From NCBI GenBank assembly GCA_012514635.1, contig JAAYZX010000049.1:1-47079 (forward strand): DNA of 47,079 nt, given 5' to 3'. Position 1 is the first letter of the stretch; every line of letters begins with the position of its first letter. The stretch comes from Actinomycetota bacterium. GTDB lineage: Bacteria; Actinomycetota; Thermoleophilia; RBG-16-64-13. Below the pieces are notes generated by a model. It searched no databases and had not been told where the DNA came from. It saw only the letters and a program-made list of their open reading frames with translations. The translations under genes and the position numbers were made by a program. Below are positions 21,234 to 33,739 of this stretch, piece after piece.

Positions 21234-22208
21234 CTAGGTCAGGTCGAGTGGACTGCGGACGCCCTGCCCTCCCCTGTTCAAGACATGGGTGTAGATCATG
21301 GTGGTGCGCACGTCTTTGTGACCTAGGAGTTCTTGGATGGTGCGGATGTCGTATCCCGCCTCCAGCAGGTGGGTGGCGAAGGAATGCCGGAAGGTGTGGC
21401 AGCCCACGTGTTTGGTGATGCTTGCTCTACTCACGGCCTCTTTCACTGCCCGCTGGACCATGGTTTCATGGATATGATGCCAGCCCTCTTGCCCCGTCTT
21501 CGCATTCTTCCAGCGGTTGGCCTGGGGAAAGACCCACTGCCGGCGCCGGTCGCCAGGTGCGTTTGGGTACTTGCGATCGAGGGCGTAAGGCAGCATGACC
21601 CGGCCCCAGCCGTCAGCCAGGTCTCGCTCGTGAGTGTTCCGTACCGAGCGCAAGTGCTCTTGCAGAGGCCTCACGAGCGATCCTGGCAACATCGTCATGC
21701 GGTTCTTGCCGCCCTTGCCATCATGCACCGTGATTTTGCAGCGGGAGAAATCCACATCCTTGATTCGAAGGCGAAGGCATTCCAGCAACCGCAACCCAGA
21801 ACCGTACAGTACAGACGCAATCAGCCATTTGTCGCCCTCAAGCTGGTCCAAGACGTCTCGTACCTCGGCACGTGTCATCACTACCGGCACCGTCGTGGTG
21901 TGCCTCGCTCGGATGACCCCTTTCAGATCGCCGACATCCCTCACAAGTACCTGCCTGTACAGGAAGAGCAGTGCGGCAAGCGCCTGATTCTGGGTGGAGG
22001 CGCTGACATTCTCACGTACCGCGAGATGAGTGAGAAAGGCGTTGATCTCGGGCTCACCCATGTCCGCGGGGTGGCGCAGATGGTGGAAGTAGATGAAACG
22101 CTTCACCCAGAGACAGTACGCGCGTTCGAGGCGCAGACTGTAGTGGCGGGCGTAAAGCGCCTCGCGCATCTGATCGAGGAGTCTGGGCGGTCGATCCATC
22201 CGGGCCAC
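21234..22208 (-). CDS. intI: Integron integrase
   Basis: A 324-aa tyrosine recombinase. The N-terminal SAM-like core-binding domain spans residues 1-100. Catalytic residues are Arg140 (GSGLRLLE), Lys in KGGKNR, His271-x-x-Arg274 (CHTFRHS), His297 (LLGH) and Tyr306 (TTMIYTHV). Residues 201-230 ([20 protein letters not shown], then WVFPQ) are the extra segment found only in integron integrases, where it grips the folded attC. The C-terminus VRSPLDLT also matches them. Start is GTG 22208, or ATG 22199. The 3' end faces attI and the cassettes, so it reads in the cassette direction. No LexA box was seen upstream. Confidence 0.95.
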
Positions 22209-23576: not shown

Positions 23577-25928
23577 CTAGAACATTGCCTCCATATCAAG
23601 CGCGGGGTGACCCACCCGGGCCAGAAAGCTCATGACCTCTTCTTCCTCCACCGCATCGTCTTCGGTAGCGATCTTCTCCCAGAGGTCCGGATGGCCGACA
23701 GCTACAGCCGCCGCCTCGATCTCTGCGCGTAGCGACTCCTTCAGGTATCGCGGCATCCACACCAAACGCAGAATGCCGCCGTCCCCGCTCAAGAACCTGG
23801 GCGACCCTACATAGAGACGCGAGTGGGCCAGAAAACCCGGTGTCTGTGCTCCGCCTCTCACCATATCGGCCAATGTGGAGAGCTTCACCCCAATGGGGAT
23901 CATGCCGGAATAGTCGCGATCCACGGTGAAGATGCCGTTGCACAGGGGCAGCACTCCGGAAATGCATTCGAAGCAGCCGCACGAAGTCATGGGGTACTCC
24001 AGGAGAGAATAAAGATCGATGCGTTCAACCGCTCCATGGGAGGCATCGTGCACGAACGAGTTGATCCCCTCCCATGAGCCACGCGCCGCATCCAGCACAT
24101 TGTCTTTGCGGATTGGTCGACTGGGTCCGGCAGGATTGATCTGGAAAGATATTTTGCCGTCCAGCCAACTGTACGCGCCGCAGAGCCCGCAGCGTTCCGG
24201 GGTCATGATGCAGACATGGTTTGGAGCGAAACTCTGGCAGATGGTGCAGGAGTAGAACTCATCAACATCTTCATCAGTGAGAGAACCGATACGTTCGTCG
24301 CGCTCGCGGTAGACGGCCTGTGCCCGCTCTAGGAGTGTCAGTACCATCTCTGTCTGCGTGAAGACGGTGACCTGTACCCTATCGACGATCTGGCTGTACT
24401 CTGCATGCATTATGGAGTGAATGATGCGCCCCAAGTGTTCGAAGCGGAAACCTGCCTCCACCGCTCTGTGGCTCAGATGCATACCCAGTACGTCTCGTTG
24501 ACCCATATGACGCAATCCCTGGACCTCATTGAGCAAATGGTGGAGTTGGCGCTCAAGAATAGGCTCAAAGTCCTTCTGCATCCTGCGCCCCGCCACCTCC
24601 ACCAGAACGCCCAACGGGACGGTGGAGCCAAACGATAGATCTTCCACCTCTGGGCCCACCACGGTCACGCGGCCATCCTCCACATCCTCGGCAGTTAGGA
24701 GTAGCTCGCAACCCGGAGCCTTCGGGCTCCCCATTTCTAAGTGCAGATCGTCGTTGCGTATGCGCTCCCCGGAGAAGACATGGCCGTAGGCCACCGGAAT
24801 ATCCATCTCGCCCACCACAGTTTTCAGACCGCGCACCTCAATAGACCGCGCTACCAGATCATGTGGGGGAACACGAGGCACCACCCGCCAACGCGTACAG
24901 TCAGTGGAAGGCAAGGTGGTCGGGATATCATGCGTAGCGATGGCGGGGAGGCCAAAATTCATAGCGCCTGCCGCAACCACGCATTGCAGATCGGTTACCG
25001 GGCCCAGCAGCACAACAAAGGCGGGCACCCTGTCCTCAACATAGGCGAAAAGTGTGCGGCAATCGCCGGGTTCCACACCTCCAAAAGCCATGGCCACACG
25101 CACAGCAAAGCCAATGGAGTGCACATGAGCAAATGCCTCACGACCGAAGGGGACCAAACGCGTGTCCCAACCCAGCTGCACCCCTCCTTCGATCAGTTGC
25201 TCCGCCAAAGTGGTCCCGCCGGCACCGATAGTTGGCAGCCTATCGAAGCCGTCGCCCGTCGCGAGGCACTCCCCGCCTTCGCCGGCCATAAAGACATATA
25301 GCGACTTTTGCTGCATCTCATGCGCAAGGGCCACCGCTGTCTCCACCGAGGGGGCCTCGCCAATGACCGCAGCAAAGCCGGGAGTCGACTCCTCTATAAA
25401 CTCTATACCCCGGGCGCGCATAATGCCGTCGGCAGCCGCACCGAGCCAGATATCATCCACAGGCGCCGGACCGACGCCCAGGTATTTCAACGCCTCGATC
25501 ACTTCTGCCAGCCAGAGCACCGCCATGCCGACATCGAGTGCTGCACTCGAGTGAGAGATCCTCAGCTGGGCCGCCGACTTAGAGTTGATGCGCTGCTCGG
25601 CCTCTTCCAGTACCCAAGCTACGTCCGCCAGCATACGAATGGGCCTGCCCGTTACGCCGTAGATAATAGGCAGATGGTAGATACTTCCGGGAAACTCAAG
25701 GCGCGTAGAGACATCGTGAGCGGCAAGCGCCTCCTCGCAGCGCTTCCTGGCCAGATGTAAACAGGCGACGGCGCACCTTACAAAACCATCGGCGCCGTCG
25801 GCCGGTCGGCCCGGTTTAACGCCGATCACAATGTCTGAATCGGCCGGGTCGGTGGCCCGGACCCGGCCCAATGAGCCCGGCGCCGCAGGCGCCGAGCAAC
25901 TACCCGGGCCCAGCAACTCCTCATTCAC
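23577..25928 (-). CDS. acsB: Acetyl-CoA synthase (CODH/ACS alpha subunit)
   Basis: A 783-aa bacterial-type acetyl-CoA synthase, which joins CO, a methyl group from the corrinoid protein, and CoA. All A-cluster ligands are present: Cys561, Cys564, Cys573 and Cys583 (CTICQSFAPNHVC, then TPERCGLCG) hold the [4Fe-4S] cubane. Cys650-Gly-Cys652 (TSCGCFEC) holds the nickel site, at the same spacing as C506-C528 and C595-C597 of Moorella. The N-terminal CODH-contacting domain is present, unlike archaeal CdhC. Start GTG 25928 overlaps the end of acsD by 4 bases. It is the last gene of the cluster before the accessory island; no CODH subunit gene is in the window. Confidence 0.96.
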   Translation of the reverse strand: MNEELLGPGSCSAPAAPGSLGRVRATDPADSDIVIGVKPGRPADGADGFVRCAVACLHLARKRCEEALAAHDVSTRLEFPGSIYHLPIIYGVTGRPIRMLADVAWVLEEAEQRINSKSAAQLRISHSSAALDVGMAVLWLAEVIEALKYLGVGPAPVDDIWLGAAADGIMRARGIEFIEESTPGFAAVIGEAPSVETAVALAHEMQQKSLYVFMAGEGGECLATGDGFDRLPTIGAGGTTLAEQLIEGGVQLGWDTRLVPFGREAFAHVHSIGFAVRVAMAFGGVEPGDCRTLFAYVEDRVPAFVVLLGPVTDLQCVVAAGAMNFGLPAIATHDIPTTLPSTDCTRWRVVPRVPPHDLVARSIEVRGLKTVVGEMDIPVAYGHVFSGERIRNDDLHLEMGSPKAPGCELLLTAEDVEDGRVTVVGPEVEDLSFGSTVPLGVLVEVAGRRMQKDFEPILERQLHHLLNEVQGLRHMGQRDVLGMHLSHRAVEAGFRFEHLGRIIHSIMHAEYSQIVDRVQVTVFTQTEMVLTLLERAQAVYRERDERIGSLTDEDVDEFYSCTICQSFAPNHVCIMTPERCGLCGAYSWLDGKISFQINPAGPSRPIRKDNVLDAARGSWEGINSFVHDASHGAVERIDLYSLLEYPMTSCGCFECISGVLPLCNGIFTVDRDYSGMIPIGVKLSTLADMVRGGAQTPGFLAHSRLYVGSPRFLSGDGGILRLVWMPRYLKESLRAEIEAAAVAVGHPDLWEKIATEDDAVEEEEVMSFLARVGHPALDMEAMF

Positions 25929-26884
25929 TGTGCGACGCCTTCACCAGCGCCCCCCGCACCTAAATCGGCAAACGTCGCCCGCAGCAGCTCCGCGCTACGC
26001 GGATGGCGAAGAATCAGCAGGTCCGCGCCCGCCAGGCTCAGCGCCAACCCGGTGACTGCCTCCCATAGTATGCCCCGCGTCTCGGCAACACCCATTCCCG
26101 GCATCTCGTCATCGCCTGCTCGACTCTCTTTAGCCTTCCAGGTCTCTTCTCCAACTGCAGCCACTATAGGTAACTGCATCTTTTGATCGTTTTGGAACAA
26201 GGCCGCCAACCGGGTGCGCTCAAAGACGGAATATGAGTACTCCAAACCGTAACCCAAGGCGCCGGTAGTGGGGTCCATAACCAGACTGTTCTCCTCGAGT
26301 CCAAGCCGAGTCAGCAACACATTGAGTTGTTTCGCCAGATTAATATCGATTGGCGATGACGCAATTACACCGTGTCCGTAGCCCAGGGCCGCTGCACCTA
26401 TAGCGCGGTAGTTCTCCTCGGAGGCAGGTCCAAGCAGTACGCGGCGGCCTTCCAAACGAGGAGCGACGGCTTGGACCACCTCAGCATCAACCTCCGGAGC
26501 TCCCGGTCCCACCACTGCCAACGGTACGTCGATGGCATCCGCTACCATTTCGGCCACGCCTGCCGCTTCTGCGATCGACCGCGACAGCCCGTTGGGATCT
26601 GTGCTCATCAGTTTCAGGTAGACGGCCTCTGCTCCCAGTTCTTCAACCACCATACGCGCCCATGCAACTGGTTCACTCCACACCCCGGAATACACATGCG
26701 CCAATGGCTTTGCCCAGTCTGTGGGAGCCACATCCCAAACCTCGAATCCCACACGCGGAGGGTTGGAAAACTCGCCTTCGAACCAATGGAACGGCAGAGC
26801 CGTCTGGCCCCCAAGCTGCAGCCCGTTCAGCACCACCTCTATCACGCTGCCTTTGGCAGTTTCCACGGGAGCTTCGAACGCCAC
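25925..26884 (-). CDS. acsD: Corrinoid iron-sulfur protein small subunit
   Basis: A 319-aa CFeSP beta subunit (AcsD/CdhD family), a TIM-barrel protein resembling methyltransferases that pairs with AcsC. Typical pieces are VGFEVWDVAPTDWAKPLAHV, LMSTDPNGLSRSIAE, GYGHGVIASSPIDINLAKQL and MDPTTGALGYGLEYSYSVFE. It carries no cluster or cobalamin itself. It is translationally coupled to acsB through a 4-base overlap and follows folD by 26 bases. AGGAG lies just upstream of the ATG. Confidence 0.95.
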   Translation of the reverse strand: MAFEAPVETAKGSVIEVVLNGLQLGGQTALPFHWFEGEFSNPPRVGFEVWDVAPTDWAKPLAHVYSGVWSEPVAWARMVVEELGAEAVYLKLMSTDPNGLSRSIAEAAGVAEMVADAIDVPLAVVGPGAPEVDAEVVQAVAPRLEGRRVLLGPASEENYRAIGAAALGYGHGVIASSPIDINLAKQLNVLLTRLGLEENSLVMDPTTGALGYGLEYSYSVFERTRLAALFQNDQKMQLPIVAAVGEETWKAKESRAGDDEMPGMGVAETRGILWEAVTGLALSLAGADLLILRHPRSAELLRATFADLGAGGAGEGVAQ

Positions 26885-26910: not shown

Positions 26911-27882
26911 CTACGCTTCGCCCTCAGCGGCCGCCTCCGCCGCCCGCACTGCATTGCGCGCCAACATCATGTTGGTCACCGCGCCGACACCGCCGGGTAC
27001 GGGCGTCACCGCGCCTGCCATTTCGGCCACCTCATCAAACCGCACATCACCCACAGTGACTGTTTGGGGGTCTTCCAAACGGCCGCCGCAGGCCATACAG
27101 GCACCTGTGGCTTCGTGATTGTGTGCACCGCAAGCTCCACAGACGAACAGCTGGTTTATACCCACATCGACGACCACGGCTCCGGGAGCGACATGCTCCC
27201 TACCTATGAATCCCGGTACACCCACCGCCGCCACCAGGAACTTGGCACGACGCGTGATTTCAGCCAGGGTTCCGGCCCTATCCGTATAGGAGTGGCATAT
27301 AGTCACAGTAGCGTGCCGGTTGAGCAGCATCGCGGCAAGGGGCTTCCCTACCGACGGCGATCGTCCCACCACTACGACCTGATCACCTGCAAAACCCCGT
27401 GCAGGATCACGATCTTCGATCTGGAGTTGCCGTTCCAGCAACTCCAGGCAGGCGGCGGGCGTGGCCGGAGGCCACGCCCGCCGCCCCAGCATCAGTCGTC
27501 CCAAGTTGCCCGGGCTCAGACAATCGATGTCTTTCAGAGGGGCAATGCGGTCGACAATCTGAGCCTCATCCACTCCAGGTGCCAACGGCCGCAGAACAAG
27601 AATTCCTGATACCGCAGGATCTTCGTTCAAAGACATCACCACATCGAGCACCTCGCTCGTAGTGGAGGTGGCGGCCAGACTTTCGTCCCGGAAAGCCAAG
27701 TTCAAACCCGAACACATGCGGGCCACAGCATCGCGATACATGGACGCGCCGAAATCGTCCCCCACCTGCACCGTGGCGATTCCGCAGGTGATCCCTCGCT
27801 CCCGGAGTATCTCAATGTCCTCTACCAGGCGGCTACGCAATTCCGCCGCTACTGCACGCCCATCTATAATTCGCGCCGTCAC
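26911..27882 (-). CDS. folD: Methylene-THF dehydrogenase (FolD) lacking cyclohydrolase residues, with a Cys4 insert
   Basis: A 323-aa FolD homologue, the NAD(P)-dependent methylene-THF dehydrogenase of the methyl branch. The fold is complete: PLKDIDCLSPGNLGRL, VVVVGRSPSVGKPLAAMLLN, AVTPVPGGVGAVTNMM. Aligned by eye with E. coli FolD, the catalytic Lys54 of IYVASKRK is Val (MYRDAVAR) and the Gln of VQLPLP is Leu (VLRPLA). Both serve the cyclohydrolase reaction, so this enzyme is probably only a dehydrogenase, and fchA beside it would supply the missing step. After DVGIN there is an insert of about 30 residues with CGAC and CMAC, a zinc-ribbon or cluster-like knuckle. Confidence 0.93.
   Translation of the reverse strand: MTARIIDGRAVAAELRSRLVEDIEILRERGITCGIATVQVGDDFGASMYRDAVARMCSGLNLAFRDESLAATSTTSEVLDVVMSLNEDPAVSGILVLRPLAPGVDEAQIVDRIAPLKDIDCLSPGNLGRLMLGRRAWPPATPAACLELLERQLQIEDRDPARGFAGDQVVVVGRSPSVGKPLAAMLLNRHATVTICHSYTDRAGTLAEITRRAKFLVAAVGVPGFIGREHVAPGAVVVDVGINQLFVCGACGAHNHEATGACMACGGRLEDPQTVTVGDVRFDEVAEMAGAVTPVPGGVGAVTNMMLARNAVRAAEAAAEGEA
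27451..27485. repeat. Perfect 16-base inverted repeat inside folD
   Basis: GGCGGCGGGCGTGGCC, loop GGA, then its exact complement. It lies in the codons for GRRAWPPATPAA, a stretch of the same length as in other FolD proteins, so it was not simply inserted. Its ends resemble the GC-rich hairpins at 38625 and 45260. Confidence 0.8.
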
Positions 27883-27893
27883 TTCACACCACC

Positions 27894-28535
27894 TCAGGAC
27901 ATGCGGGTTTGCGAAGTCGCCAGCGCCCGCGCCACGGCCACGTCGGTACGTGCCGTAATCTCGTCCATCTCCGCCAGCGCTACTGCGCCCGCTTCCTTGT
28001 CTGAGATGGAGGCCGCATTGATAGCCACATTGAGCCGAGCCGTCTTCACCGCCGCCTGGGCCAGCAATCCGGCCGCCCCTGCATCGCTGATAACGTTCAC
28101 GTTCCCAATTTCAGCAGCTTCAAGCGCCAGCTGTGCCACCGTGTCGACGCGTCGTGCAACATCCAACGGCACCGCCATGGCCCAATGCAGGGCTTTCTGT
28201 AGCTCTTCCGAGCGGACCTGTTTTTCTTCGTCCGATTCCTTGGGCAGTTTCATCGCCTTCGACACCGATGCAAACGCGACCGCATCCGTTTCTACCAAGT
28301 CCTGCAATTCCTTGAGTAACGCCGCGCTCCGCTCCAGCAACACCTTTGCCGCTGGGTGCGCATCCTCCCATCGTGGTGACGAAATGGTCAGGTTCGCTAC
28401 CATACTCACCAGCGCCGCCGCCAGGGCGCCCGCGAGCGCGGCTGCGCTACCACCTCCCGGCGTGGGACTGGATGAGGACAAACCGTCCAGATAACCTCGC
28501 AACGAACCGTCCAGATACTGTGGTCTATCCGTCAC
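27894..28535 (-). CDS. fchA: Methenyl-THF cyclohydrolase (FchA family)
   Basis: A 213-aa helical protein of the formiminotransferase-cyclodeaminase/FchA family, which interconverts methenyl-THF and formyl-THF. The signature SSSPTPGGGSAAALAGALAA near residues 20-40 and the later EIGNVNVISDAGAAGLLAQA are typical. Start is GTG 28535 with AAAGGAG about seven bases upstream. It lies 11 bases before folD. Its presence explains how the pathway can run with a FolD that lacks cyclohydrolase residues. Confidence 0.92.
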   Translation of the reverse strand: MTDRPQYLDGSLRGYLDGLSSSSPTPGGGSAAALAGALAAALVSMVANLTISSPRWEDAHPAAKVLLERSAALLKELQDLVETDAVAFASVSKAMKLPKESDEEKQVRSEELQKALHWAMAVPLDVARRVDTVAQLALEAAEIGNVNVISDAGAAGLLAQAAVKTARLNVAINAASISDKEAGAVALAEMDEITARTDVAVARALATSQTRMS

Positions 28536-28776: not shown

Positions 28777-30783
28777 TCACGCCGGATCCTCAGGGACGCT
28801 TCCCAGAAGTCTCCGTTCCATCTTCGGGAAGAGGGCCATGTCGGTGTGGGGCAGGAAGTTGGCGGCCATGTAATTGTCGACAAAACGTTGATTATCGCTG
28901 AGCTCCACATTTGTCATACCCAACGCCACATTATGCGCAGCCTTCAGCATGTCTATGGAGAACGAGCCCAATGCCGCGCCCAACAACGATCCGTTACCTA
29001 CGAAGTGAAAACGATCGTGAGGGAGCTCCGGAAAGAGGCCCAACGCCATAGCCTGCTCCAGACGGAGATACCGCCCAAAGCCACCGGCAATCATGATCTG
29101 CTCCAAGTCTTTCCAGCTCAACATGACACTTTCCAGCAGTGTCTGCACTCCCGCGAAGATGGCGGCCTTGGCACGAACAACGTTGTCGATGTCGCTCTCC
29201 GTGATAACGATGTCGTCACTTATCCCCGAGTATTGAGATTCCACCAACACGTATTCGGCTGCCCCCTCCGGCCATCGCACACGAGAGGTGGCAATGTCGG
29301 GGTTGAAACGTCCGTTCTGCCCAATCAAGCCTGCTTTCAACAGTTCCGCCACCGCATCGATGACACCGGACCCGCATATGCCCAACGGCGCCTGATCACC
29401 CACCGTGAGTATGGAAGGCTCGTAGGTGAGCGGATCAATCCGCACGGCCTCGATGGCTCCCGGAGCCGCCCTCATACCGTGACGCAGCCCTCCACCCTCA
29501 AAGGCCGGTCCCGCAGAACATGATGCGGCGATCATCCATTCGCGATTCCCCACCACCGCCTCACCGTTGGTACCAACGTCCAAATAGAGCGTGATTTTCT
29601 CGGTTTCCGTAAGTCCCGCGCCCACAACGCCGGACACGATATCGCCCCCTAGGTAGCTGGCCACCGTGGGGAAGGTGTACACGTGCACACGTCGGCCCAC
29701 GTGAATGCCATCGCCCAGATTGACGGCACGAACGGGGGGAATGAAATCCGCAGGGGGAACGTATGGCTGAAGGCGAAGGTATTTGGGGTCGATACCCACC
29801 AGCAGACAGGTCATAGTGGTGTTACCGGCCGCCATGATATGACTAATGCTGGTGCGATCCACACCGGTGGTTCCTACCAGTTGATCGAGCACCTCGTTGA
29901 TGGTGTCCACGACGGCCTGCTGCAATGCCTCACGACGTCCGGGTCCCTGTGAATACACCACCCGGCTGATCACGTCCTCACCGTAGCGGATCTGGTGATT
30001 GTATGCCGATGCTTCGGCCAGGGCTACTTGGTGATTAAGATCCAGCAATTGACCCCATACAGTGGTGGTACCGACATCCAGGGCTACTGCATAGGCTTCA
30101 TCGGTACGGACTCCCGATTCGAGATTGATGACCTTATATCCGTAAGGTGTGTGCACCACCGTGGCCGTGACCAGCCACCCTTCCTGTCGCAGGACGGCGG
30201 GCATGTTCCGGATCCAGATAGAGTCGACCGACACATTGGTGAGCCCAAACTCATCGCTCAGAGCCTTCCGAAAGCGCGCGAGATCGTTCAGGTTATCGCG
30301 ACCGGACGGCGGCTCCAACTGCATACCAAAAACCTTCACCACCGGAACCACCGGCCTGCGTCCCAGCAGATCTTCCACTTGTTTGGACACCATGAGGGCA
30401 TGGCCCTCACCGGAGGCCAATGTGTCACGCACCCGAGATTCCGCCAGCCGCGATGAATCGGGTATCTCACATTCCAGGTCAGATGTAACCTGTGCCTGGC
30501 AGGCCAGACGCCAGCCCTGCGACCACTCCTCTTCCGTCAACGCGACTGAAGGCCTGCTGTCCACCTGTCCACGCACAATTCGTACACGACACCGGCCACA
30601 GGAACCCGTGCCACCACAGGGAGCCATGATGTCCAATCCGGCCTCCAGTGCCGCCCGCATGATGGTGGTTCCAGAAGCGATACCCTCCACCCGCCGATCA
30701 CCTGGTTGGAACACCAAAGTATGGGAGAGGGGGGGTGACACGCACATGGGCGGAGGTAGTTCTCCAGCGGCTGGGATATCCAT
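28777..30783 (-). CDS. acsV: Reductive activator of the corrinoid iron-sulfur protein (RACo)
   Basis: A 668-aa ASKHA-type ATPase with an N-terminal [2Fe-2S] ferredoxin domain. It returns inactive Co(II) corrinoid to Co(I) in an ATP-dependent step. Cluster ligands are Cys56, Cys62, Cys65 and Cys95 (MAPCGGTGSCGRCRVRI, then LACQAQV). The ATPase part shows AVALDVGTTTVWGQLLDL, MAAGNTTMTCLLVGIDPKYL, YLDVGTNGEAVVGN and IMIAGGFGRYL. Length and order match RACo of acetogens. It follows fhs with no gap (ATG 30783, fhs stop 30784). Confidence 0.95.
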   Translation of the reverse strand: MDIPAAGELPPPMCVSPPLSHTLVFQPGDRRVEGIASGTTIMRAALEAGLDIMAPCGGTGSCGRCRVRIVRGQVDSRPSVALTEEEWSQGWRLACQAQVTSDLECEIPDSSRLAESRVRDTLASGEGHALMVSKQVEDLLGRRPVVPVVKVFGMQLEPPSGRDNLNDLARFRKALSDEFGLTNVSVDSIWIRNMPAVLRQEGWLVTATVVHTPYGYKVINLESGVRTDEAYAVALDVGTTTVWGQLLDLNHQVALAEASAYNHQIRYGEDVISRVVYSQGPGRREALQQAVVDTINEVLDQLVGTTGVDRTSISHIMAAGNTTMTCLLVGIDPKYLRLQPYVPPADFIPPVRAVNLGDGIHVGRRVHVYTFPTVASYLGGDIVSGVVGAGLTETEKITLYLDVGTNGEAVVGNREWMIAASCSAGPAFEGGGLRHGMRAAPGAIEAVRIDPLTYEPSILTVGDQAPLGICGSGVIDAVAELLKAGLIGQNGRFNPDIATSRVRWPEGAAEYVLVESQYSGISDDIVITESDIDNVVRAKAAIFAGVQTLLESVMLSWKDLEQIMIAGGFGRYLRLEQAMALGLFPELPHDRFHFVGNGSLLGAALGSFSIDMLKAAHNVALGMTNVELSDNQRFVDNYMAANFLPHTDMALFPKMERRLLGSVPEDPA

Positions 30784-32448
30784 CTAAGAGAGGCCGACTA
30801 TCTCGCCGTCAACTAAGTCGATGCGCTCGGCGGCCGGGCGTTTAGGCAAACCGGGCATGGTCATCATTTTACCACAGACAGGCACCACCATTCCCGCGCC
30901 CGCCGACAGCCGCACCTCACGCACCAACAGCCGCCAACCCCGCGGCCGACCCAACAGCGTGTTATCGTCGGAGAGCGAAGTCTGCGTCTTGGCCATGCAC
31001 ACCGGCAGATGACCGTAGCCGTGGGCCGTGAAGCGATCCAACGCCCGTTCGGCACGTGAGTAGAAATCCACGCCCTCGGCCCCATATATGCGGGTTGCGA
31101 TCACCTCAATCTTCTCCTTCAATTCTTGATCACTTCTATACAGGAAGCGGAAATGTTTGAAGTCGGCCGCGGCGCAGATCCGTATGACCTCAGCCCCTAA
31201 GTCAACTGCTCCCTCACCCCCATCCTTCCACGCGCTGCAGCGCACAACCGGTAATCCTATCTGCTCCACCTCGTGCTCCAATGAGACCAATTCCATCTCA
31301 GTATCCTCAGTGAAGACGTTGATAGCCACCACCACCGGAACACCGAACAGTTCCATGTTCTCGCAATGCTTCCGTAGGTTCTCAAAGCCTGCGGCCACAG
31401 CAGCAGGGTTCGGCTCACCAAGCCGATTTGCCGGAACACCTCCGTGCATCTTCAAGGCCCGTACGGTTGCCACCATCACTACACAATCCGGCCGCAGCCC
31501 TGCGTACCGACATTTGATGTTGAAGAACTTCTCGGCTCCCAAGTCGGCGCCGAACCCCGCCTCCGTCACGCAGTAGTCGGCCAGTTTCAAACCCATCTGC
31601 GTAGCCTGCACCGAATTGCAGCCGTGCGCGATGTTGGCGAAGGGTCCACCATGCACAATAGCGGCCGTATTCTCAAGCGTCTGAACCAGATTGGGTTTTA
31701 TCGCATCCTTCAGCAGAGCGGCCATAGCCCCTGCCACGTTGATATCCGACGTAGTCACCGGCCGTCCACGACGGCTCCACCCCAAAAAGATCTTGCCCAG
31801 ACGCTCGCGCAGGTCTCGCGGGCTCGTAGCCAAACACAGAATAGCCATGACTTCTGAGGCGGCCGTGATATCGAATCGGGTCAGGCGCTCAACACCTTCA
31901 CCGCGCTGGCTGACGGTCACATTGCGCAGTGCTCGATCGTTCATATCCATGACGCGCGGCCAGTAAATGAGATCCGGCTCAATATCGAGTTCGTTACCAT
32001 GAAACATGTGATTATCGATGATTGCGGCGCATAGGTTGTGAGCCGCCGTCACGGCATGCATGTCCCCCGTGAAATGTAGGTTGATCTCCTCCATGGGCAC
32101 TACCTGTGAATATCCACCACCTGCAGCACCACCCTTGATGCCAAACGAGGGACCTAACGACGGCTCCCGCAATGTGGTTACTACTCGCTTACCCAGTCTC
32201 GCCAGCCCCATGGACAGACCGATATTGACCGTGGTTTTGCCCTCACCCGCGCGCGTTGGGGTGACGGCCGTACAAAGAACGAGCTTCCCGTTAGGCCCTT
32301 GGGCTCGTGTATCCAGCGCGTCGAGTTTGATCTTGGCCTTGTAATCGCCGTAAGATTCGATTTCTTCTGATCCCAAACCCAGCCCATCGGCGATCTCACG
32401 GATGGGCAACAAGGACGCTTCATGGGCGATCTGCAGGTCGGCTTTCAA
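30784..32448 (-). CDS. fhs: Formate--tetrahydrofolate ligase
   Basis: A 554-aa formyl-THF synthetase, the first THF step of the Wood-Ljungdahl methyl branch, of the usual length. The P-loop TPTRAGEGKTTVNIGLSMGL replaces the common TPAGEGKTT by one longer turn. Family motifs REPSLGPSFGIKGGAAGGGY, VTAAHNLCAAIIDNH and ANIAHGCNSVQATQ follow. The start is TTG 32448 with AAGGAAG six bases upstream. It lies 61 bases after larC on the same strand and is followed at once by acsV. Confidence 0.97.
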   Translation of the reverse strand: MKADLQIAHEASLLPIREIADGLGLGSEEIESYGDYKAKIKLDALDTRAQGPNGKLVLCTAVTPTRAGEGKTTVNIGLSMGLARLGKRVVTTLREPSLGPSFGIKGGAAGGGYSQVVPMEEINLHFTGDMHAVTAAHNLCAAIIDNHMFHGNELDIEPDLIYWPRVMDMNDRALRNVTVSQRGEGVERLTRFDITAASEVMAILCLATSPRDLRERLGKIFLGWSRRGRPVTTSDINVAGAMAALLKDAIKPNLVQTLENTAAIVHGGPFANIAHGCNSVQATQMGLKLADYCVTEAGFGADLGAEKFFNIKCRYAGLRPDCVVMVATVRALKMHGGVPANRLGEPNPAAVAAGFENLRKHCENMELFGVPVVVAINVFTEDTEMELVSLEHEVEQIGLPVVRCSAWKDGGEGAVDLGAEVIRICAAADFKHFRFLYRSDQELKEKIEVIATRIYGAEGVDFYSRAERALDRFTAHGYGHLPVCMAKTQTSLSDDNTLLGRPRGWRLLVREVRLSAGAGMVVPVCGKMMTMPGLPKRPAAERIDLVDGEIVGLS

Positions 32449-32509: not shown

Positions 32510-33739
32510 CTACACAAGAGCACGGGCGGCGGCGGCGGCGGCGCTCATAACCGATTCGAGTGAACGACCCAACCGACGCGCCGCCGCCGCCGCATCCTCA
32601 TACTCTGCGGCCACCGTCACCGGTTCGCCGTGCCACCAGCCCACCTTCACGCGCACCGCCACCCCTTCCACATCCACCTCTACCCAAGATCGGTCCACGC
32701 GCTGTCTCTCCACCCAGCGCCGCCGCACACCCAATGTTCCGGATTCACGTATCAAGATGCCTTCCAACTCATCTTGATTCTGTGCCGTTCCCAGCACCGC
32801 AATCTCCATACCCGGACGCCCTTTCTTCATGACAACCGGTCTCAACCAGGCATCAAGAGCACCCGCTTCCAAGAGACTGCTCTGTACATAAGCCAGACGC
32901 TCGCCGGCGCAATCGTCGAGCTGAGTCTCCAGCAACCACACCCCTTCCACCCTGCCCTCACGAGACGACGACTCTGTCGCCGCTCCGCTCTCCGCGCCCA
33001 ACATGACCCGCATCACATTGGGACCGTGCTCCAGATCCATGTGGCCCGCCCCATAACCCACTGCTTCCAAAACCATGGACGGGAGGACACCCCACGCCGA
33101 CGCCAGTTCCGTCACCATAAGTGCACCGGTAGGAGTTGTGATTTCCCCCCGCTCTTCTCCGGCCCTCACAGGTATACCCCGACACAACTCAAGTGTGGCG
33201 GGTGCCGGGATTCCCACCAAGCCGTGTGCGATCCGCACGGAACCTGCACCCAGAGGCAGAGGGCCACACACTACCTGTGGCGCCCCCAGTGCATGCCACA
33301 AAGCGAAGCCTCCCACCACGTCAACCAGCGTGTCCACGGCTCCCAGCTCGTGGAAGTGCACCCTTTCCACGGGAATGCCGTGAATGGTGGCCTCCACCCT
33401 CGCCAACCGTCGCAACGCATCAACCGAGCGCCTGGTGACCTCCTCGGGTAGCTCCGCTGCCAGCACAACGGCCTCAGCCTCTGCAGGGCCCCGAACGACC
33501 CCGTCGCACGGATCCACCACATCCAGACGAAGAGCGCCGATTCCTTTCGACGTCACCCGCTCTATCACCAGCTCCACGTCTCCTACACCGAGTCGTTTCA
33601 CGGTCTCCAGCAACAGCTCTTCCAGCGGTCTCGGTTCCGTGATGTCTTTAGCTGATGACGATTCCAAGTCGAGCAACGCCGACAGCAACATGTCGCCGGC
33701 CGCTCCCGCCCAAGGGTCGATGTAGAGAATCCGAGACAC
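32510..33739 (-). CDS. larC: Nickel-pincer cofactor biosynthesis protein LarC
   Basis: A 409-aa LarC homologue, the CTP-dependent nickel-inserting cyclometallase that completes the pincer cofactor of lactate racemase-type enzymes. The N-terminus ILYIDPWAGAAGDMLLSALL and VHFHELGAVDTLVDVVGGFA (His-rich) are typical. The C-terminal domain (ETQLDDCAGERLAYVQSSLL ... VVMKKGRPGMEIAVLG) completes the single-chain form. GTG 33739 has GGAGGAGG five bases upstream. It is upstream of fhs on the same strand, so a nickel-handling gene leads a cluster whose end product AcsB is a nickel enzyme. No larA or larB is seen. Confidence 0.9.
   Translation of the reverse strand: MSRILYIDPWAGAAGDMLLSALLDLESSSAKDITEPRPLEELLLETVKRLGVGDVELVIERVTSKGIGALRLDVVDPCDGVVRGPAEAEAVVLAAELPEEVTRRSVDALRRLARVEATIHGIPVERVHFHELGAVDTLVDVVGGFALWHALGAPQVVCGPLPLGAGSVRIAHGLVGIPAPATLELCRGIPVRAGEERGEITTPTGALMVTELASAWGVLPSMVLEAVGYGAGHMDLEHGPNVMRVMLGAESGAATESSSREGRVEGVWLLETQLDDCAGERLAYVQSSLLEAGALDAWLRPVVMKKGRPGMEIAVLGTAQNQDELEGILIRESGTLGVRRRWVERQRVDRSWVEVDVEGVAVRVKVGWWHGEPVTVAAEYEDAAAAARRLGRSLESVMSAAAAAARALV

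Follow-up and report, generated by a model that had tools for sequence, protein, structure and literature searches.

In methylotrophs, FchA and MtdA divide the cyclohydrolase and dehydrogenase work between them, with MtdA belonging to a different dehydrogenase family. The yeast enzyme Mtd1 is reportedly a monofunctional NAD-dependent methylene-THF dehydrogenase, as Barlowe and Appling are said to have described in 1990. Among acetogens, Acetobacterium woodii has the gene order fhs1-fchA-folD-rnfC2-metV-metF (PMC10472528), so a split between FchA and FolD is already known and is not in itself new in kind. For the bifunctional human enzyme MTHFD1, Lys56 and Gln100 have been named as catalytic, and Lys56 has been proposed as the proton carrier of the cyclohydrolase step (PMC3368264; PMC6443876); a later analysis doubts that Lys56 is catalytic in the dehydrogenase step and regards it mainly as a binding residue (PMC9173628). 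A survey of Actinobacteria with the Wood-Ljungdahl pathway describes fch as absent and FolD as bifunctional, yet lists an ftcD gene in the neighborhood (PMC7325909).

The window analyzed here, a stretch of 47,079 nucleotides from an Actinomycetota bacterium, contains a Wood-Ljungdahl operon in the order LarC, Fhs, AcsV, FchA, FolD, AcsD, AcsB. The genes that surround folD are as follows.

30784..32448, minus strand: fhs, formate-tetrahydrofolate ligase, which catalyzes the step that precedes FchA (NCBIfam PRK13505, 824.7 bits, above cut-off)
28777..30783, minus strand: acsV, RACo-type corrinoid activation protein (PF14574, 319 bits; PF17651, 167 bits; NCBIfam AcsV, 622.6 bits, under cut-off)
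27894..28535, minus strand: fchA, methenyltetrahydrofolate cyclohydrolase, 213 aa (PF04961, 191.9 bits; NCBIfam FchA NF045657)
26911..27882, minus strand: folD, methylenetetrahydrofolate dehydrogenase, predicted to lack cyclohydrolase activity; 323 aa from a GTG start (Pfam, AlphaFold2, Foldseek)
25925..26884, minus strand: acsD/cdhD, acetyl-CoA decarbonylase/synthase delta subunit (Pfam and NCBIfam)
23577..25928, minus strand: acsB, acetyl-CoA synthase alpha/beta (NCBIfam CODH_ACS_al_bet, 870.7 bits, above cut-off)

The fchA stop lies at 27894 and folD starts at 27882, which agrees with the 11-base spacing given by an earlier, sequence-only reading of this DNA. The FchA match to NF045657 (E 1e-56, 191.7 bits) is under the 275-bit cut-off of that model. 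Ahead of the GTG start of folD, the sequence AGGTGG resembles a ribosome-binding site. Both domains of the protein score well above their Pfam cut-offs (PF00763, THF_DHG_CYH, 88.8 bits with a cut-off of 32.8; PF02882, THF_DHG_CYH_C, 161 bits with a cut-off of 27), and the NAD(P)-binding domain is thus retained. An AlphaFold2 model built with alignment A1 has a pLDDT of 89.2, and its best Foldseek matches are exclusively FolD/MTHFD; among the NCBIfam matches listed for this protein, all 25 of 25 models are named bifunctional. The genome, which is 98% complete, has a single PF00763 match and hence one copy of FolD, and a search of it with PF00763 for a second, intact FolD found none. Near the cofactor site (residues 172-201, approximately 27280-27369, minus strand), the window FolD and that of one relative (G007) have VGRS and CHS where the other aligned family members have GHS and HVYTS or HVFTS, a difference that perhaps reflects a change between NADP and NAD.

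The residues of the cyclohydrolase site were placed with a phmmer alignment of the window FolD to human MTHFD1, which is gapless across both catalytic sites and gives these positions.

27724..27726, minus strand: Val53 codon, at the place of the catalytic Lys (human Lys56, E. coli Lys54; MTHFD1 alignment, Val invariant in A1)
27592..27594, minus strand: Leu97 codon, at the place of the catalytic Gln (human Gln100, E. coli Gln98; MTHFD1 alignment, A1)
27589..27591, minus strand: Arg98 codon, at the place of human Leu101 (MTHFD1 alignment)
27523..27525, minus strand: Asp120 codon, the conserved substrate-binding Asp (human Asp125; MTHFD1 alignment, A1, survey)

The replacement of Lys54 by Val and of the VQLPLP Gln by Leu, which the earlier reading had made out from an ungapped alignment by eye, is therefore also seen against the human enzyme: the lysine of the YxxxK motif is Val53, and the glutamine of VQLPLP is Leu97. 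The active-site Tyr is retained (Tyr49, human Tyr52). No substitute Lys was found in the helix stretch YRDAVARM. Together, these residues support a loss of the cyclohydrolase site, and by extension a probable loss of cyclohydrolase function. The step from loss of the Lys to loss of activity is not airtight, because Lys56 has been viewed as mainly a binding residue (PMC9173628).

The same replacements define the family to which the window FolD belongs. Sixty relatives were covered by the search; this family (f1) comprises the window genome and 17 others. In all of its complete FolDs (17 of 17, the window included), Val occupies the Lys site, Leu occupies the Gln site, and an insert with four cysteines is present; the eighteenth FolD is truncated by contig ends and stands outside these counts. 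The folD gene adjoins fchA in 17 of the 18 genomes, and in the remaining one (G011) folD begins at a contig end and fchA is on another contig. A second family from the same class (f3, nine genomes) carries Ile in place of the Lys and Leu in place of the Gln; it is without the insert, and fchA adjoins folD in 9/9. The three further members of the class with a FolD that was read (L023, L029 and L031) have both Lys and Gln and no adjoining fchA.

The surrounding operon varies among these relatives. The order Fhs-AcsV-FchA-FolD-AcsD is kept in four of the ten f1 genomes examined more widely (G007, G002, G014 and G004). In five f1 stretches (L269-L273), Fhs-FchA-FolD occurs with no acetyl-CoA synthase genes in the DNA covered; genes read by eye downstream include a lipoamide dehydrogenase in L271 and L273 and MetF in L273. 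The acsB and acsD genes directly overlap in the window (23577-26884), and in one f1 relative (L276, 6137-8113) they are separated by a gene that was identified by eye as CO dehydrogenase-like; no counterpart turned up among the window open reading frames of at least 150 aa. The nickel-pincer cofactor gene larC adjoins fhs in the window (32510-33739) and in L268, L275-L277 and L283-L285, which represent two families, and it could be asked whether larC in folate/Wood-Ljungdahl operons relates to nickel supply to acetyl-CoA synthase. Elsewhere in the window, IS3-type transposase and integron-type tyrosine recombinase reading frames were noted by eye (520-1407 and 21234-22208).

To place the residue changes in a wider context, 164 distinct FolDs were surveyed, comprising those of the relatives, a broad comparison panel (FolDs from a profile search of genome contigs with A1, all without the ribbon described below) and FolDs that adjoin FchA in samples of three phyla: that of the window, that of a Chloroflexi genome and that of a Clostridiales genome. 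Every FolD adjacent to fchA is without Lys, Gln or both (82/82): 52 are without both, 23 without Lys only and 7 without Gln only. The co-loss suspected by the earlier reading is therefore general, but not as a loss of Lys alone, and the 23 Lys-only and 7 Gln-only cases make the rule one of Lys or Gln. The seven that keep Lys have Glu in place of Gln (L035, L169, L222, L223, L230, L232 and L233), which is apparently a different way of giving up the cyclohydrolase. Among FolDs that do not adjoin fchA, both residues are present in 78/82. The four exceptions are L013, where the residue-losing FolD begins at a contig end and no fchA neighbor is visible; L043 and L096, where it stands in tandem with a FolD with intact Lys and Gln (paralogues in L309 and L290) and FchA was sought in the genome and not found; and L102, where fchA is located elsewhere in the genome. 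The association of fchA adjacency with loss of Lys or Gln has a Fisher p of 3e-42, a value that ignores relatedness. On the tree, 2-4 changes suffice for each of the two traits, residue loss and fchA adjacency, so the claim is one of a consistent pattern over few origins and not of many independent events. Since FchA-family genes are also present in some genomes with an intact FolD, it is adjacency, and not the presence of fchA alone, that predicts the loss. The pairing of residue loss with an adjacent fchA is strongly supported by this comparison of sequences, and it extends wider than the earlier reading knew.

An Arg at the position of human Leu101 is found in 42/56 of the FolDs without both Lys and Gln and in 0/78 intact ones, and may be a compensation in the former. 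As if offsetting a lost positive charge, this distribution could be taken to mean that FolD is still bifunctional, with Arg98 or another residue replacing Lys56. We consider this improbable: it would leave unexplained both the fchA beside all 82 such genes and the intact paralogues in the two genomes without fchA, and Arg98 may serve the dehydrogenase step instead.

The second distinguishing feature of the window FolD is located between the DVGIN and VGDV motifs.

27067..27147, minus strand: four-cysteine insert, residues 246-272, C248-x2-C251-x10-C262-x2-C265, a probable zinc ribbon (A1, Pfam, AlphaFold2)

The cysteine pairs, 248-CGAC-251 and 262-CMAC-265, occupy a site at which ordinary FolDs mostly have a loop of 10-18 residues. 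Structure prediction, which had been suggested as a check on the insert, gives a confident model of it (pLDDT approximately 88-91), a small beta element flanked by strands 243-247 and 273-277. Ordinary Acidobacteriota FolDs also have long loops at this site (31-37 aa, free of Cys), which indicates that insertions can be accommodated here independently of cyclohydrolase loss. Given this tolerance in unrelated FolDs, the insert might be a neutral loop without function. That reading is very unlikely. In A1 all four cysteines are invariant although the distance between the two CxxC pairs ranges from 10 to 17 residues, and the insert is present in every complete copy of the family despite this variation; chance is therefore a poor account of it.

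As expected of a zinc ribbon, two CxxC knuckles with 4/4 conserved Cys occur in all complete f1 copies. Matches to zinc-ribbon families in Pfam are below their thresholds (zf-ChsH2, 17.7 bits for the window FolD with a cut-off of 23.2; Zn_ribbon_3, at best 20.3 bits with a cut-off of 27; DZR, 19.3 bits, under the gathering threshold). Of the two ligands proposed earlier, zinc or an Fe-S cluster, these sub-threshold matches favor zinc, which the insert likely binds, and the Fe-S part is not borne out, the Cys spacing and the matches being those of short zinc ribbons. Four conserved cysteines in an anaerobic, metal-rich pathway, in CxxC pairs that resemble rubredoxin knuckles, might still suggest bound iron (rubredoxin-type or Fe-S) that moves electrons into or out of the folate reaction. 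We regard this as extremely unlikely. FolD passes hydride directly to NAD(P), and the domain that binds it, PF02882, is kept. In addition, a related clade from the phylum of the window (f22, f28, f36, f43, f48 and f50) has a 27-residue, Cys-free hairpin at the insert site (NRVKVLDEKGEPVLNEKGKPKTKTVGD), and the order Fhs-AcsV-FchA-FolD-AcsD is found in 5/5 of its genomes examined. The electron transfer suggested by the earlier reading thus finds no support, since the existence of enzymes of the group without cysteines argues against such a role and for a structural one.

The stretch at the insert site is 27 residues long in the hairpin clade; most ribbon FolDs have 37 residues there, and many ordinary FolDs have 10-11. 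The first Cys knuckle of the ribbon aligns with LDEKG of the hairpin. A FolD tree, calculated with the insert columns omitted, was at first read as showing that the hairpin is a ribbon after loss of its cysteines. This reading was set aside, as the AU test fails to reject a single ribbon clade (p 0.59), which has a slightly better likelihood; the tree and the test are compatible either with Cys loss in the hairpin clade or with Cys gain in the ribbon clade.

Ribbon FolDs were sought outside f1 in 397 genomes of the window's phylum, 300 of a Bacillota phylum and 222 of the Chloroflexi phylum, and none turned up, in keeping with the earlier statement that ordinary FolD lacks the insert: among the sampled genomes the ribbon is seen only in f1. 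One match in the sample of the window's phylum (G169) is an unrelated ribbon protein and not a FolD. Of the matches in the Bacillota and Chloroflexota samples, L153-L164 hold no FolD and L262-L267 are 12-bit noise only. A literature search for an earlier description of a FolD with a zinc ribbon found none, and it returned nothing relevant on FolD K54S. The four-cysteine insert is thus the new part of the finding, and the loss of Lys and Gln beside FchA is not new in kind.

The position of the insert bears on what it might do. Ile242 of the window FolD corresponds in the alignment to Ile238 of the human enzyme, which belongs to the substrate site (PMC3368264), and the insert begins four residues later, which puts its start near the rim of the cleft. 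Together with the adjacency of fchA and folD in nearly all f1 genomes, this placement gives some grounds for a docking module that would channel methenyl-THF between separate proteins, with FchA, MetF or the CODH/ACS complex as the partner. Such a role, which is compatible with the explanation preferred below, is possible but doubtful. The ribbon is kept with Fhs-FchA whether or not ACS genes are nearby, which would favor FchA over AcsD; its persistence in Fhs-FchA-FolD genomes without ACS genes nearby makes AcsD the less likely partner. Most FolDs adjacent to fchA, including those of f3 from the same class, have a loop of 10-11 residues and no ribbon, and no fusion of FchA and FolD was seen, both of which count against docking. 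The further proposal that the ribbon, added at the active-site rim upon loss of the cyclohydrolase, holds FchA and passes on methenyl-THF so as to restore the channeling of a bifunctional enzyme, with the hairpin of the related clade doing the same without metal, is rather unlikely.

Based on these observations, the window FolD is quite probably a dehydrogenase-only enzyme of a Wood-Ljungdahl operon that is supplied by FchA and has a structural ribbon, presumably of zinc, that possibly aids docking. Fhs would produce 10-formyl-THF, FchA would turn it into methenyl-THF, and FolD would reduce this to methylene-THF with NAD(P)H in the methyl branch of the pathway. The Lys/Gln pair would no longer be needed because a dedicated cyclohydrolase is encoded beside FolD; in its place are Val and Leu, with an Arg adjoining, and the functional effect of this replacement is predicted from the residues. 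The insert would be a small zinc ribbon that lengthens the loop after the DVGIN strand; placed where the active-site cleft has its rim, it would have a structural role and make the loop rigid. It may also offer a contact surface to a partner, for which FchA would be the first candidate.

Compared with the bifunctional FolD/MTHFD1 enzymes, the window FolD has the same fold along its full length (Foldseek E 3.9e-26 for E. coli, 1B0A, and 1.2e-26 for human, 1A4I) and keeps the active-site Tyr and Asp and the NAD(P)-binding domain; it differs in Val/Leu for Lys/Gln, Arg at the Leu101 position and the four-Cys insert. These differences suggest a simple sequence rule, whether or not Lys and Gln are both present, by which dehydrogenase-only enzymes could be told from bifunctional FolDs, as which they are now annotated. 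If the lineages of the Actinobacteria survey overlap those examined here, its reading of an absent fch and a bifunctional FolD would need correcting (PMC7325909). The FchA and FolD pair of A. woodii, compared here by gene order, likewise has separate, neighboring cyclohydrolase and dehydrogenase genes after fhs; unlike that pair, the window FolD carries a ribbon. The FchA and MtdA of methylotrophs show the same division of labor with another dehydrogenase family. Yeast Mtd1 is likewise a dehydrogenase with the FolD fold, very distant from the window FolD (E 4e-5), and its structure (1EDZ) is not known to have a ribbon. Finally, most f1 members have a pattern like the CPxCG-x(9)-CxxCGxxL of short zinc ribbons (Zn_ribbon_3, Zn_Ribbon_1 and DZR). 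In contrast to these, the f1 ribbon sits inside an enzyme loop and scores under the Pfam family cut-offs; it would represent an uncommon metal-binding module, with zinc the predicted metal, inserted in a central folate enzyme whose metal-free relatives allow comparison.
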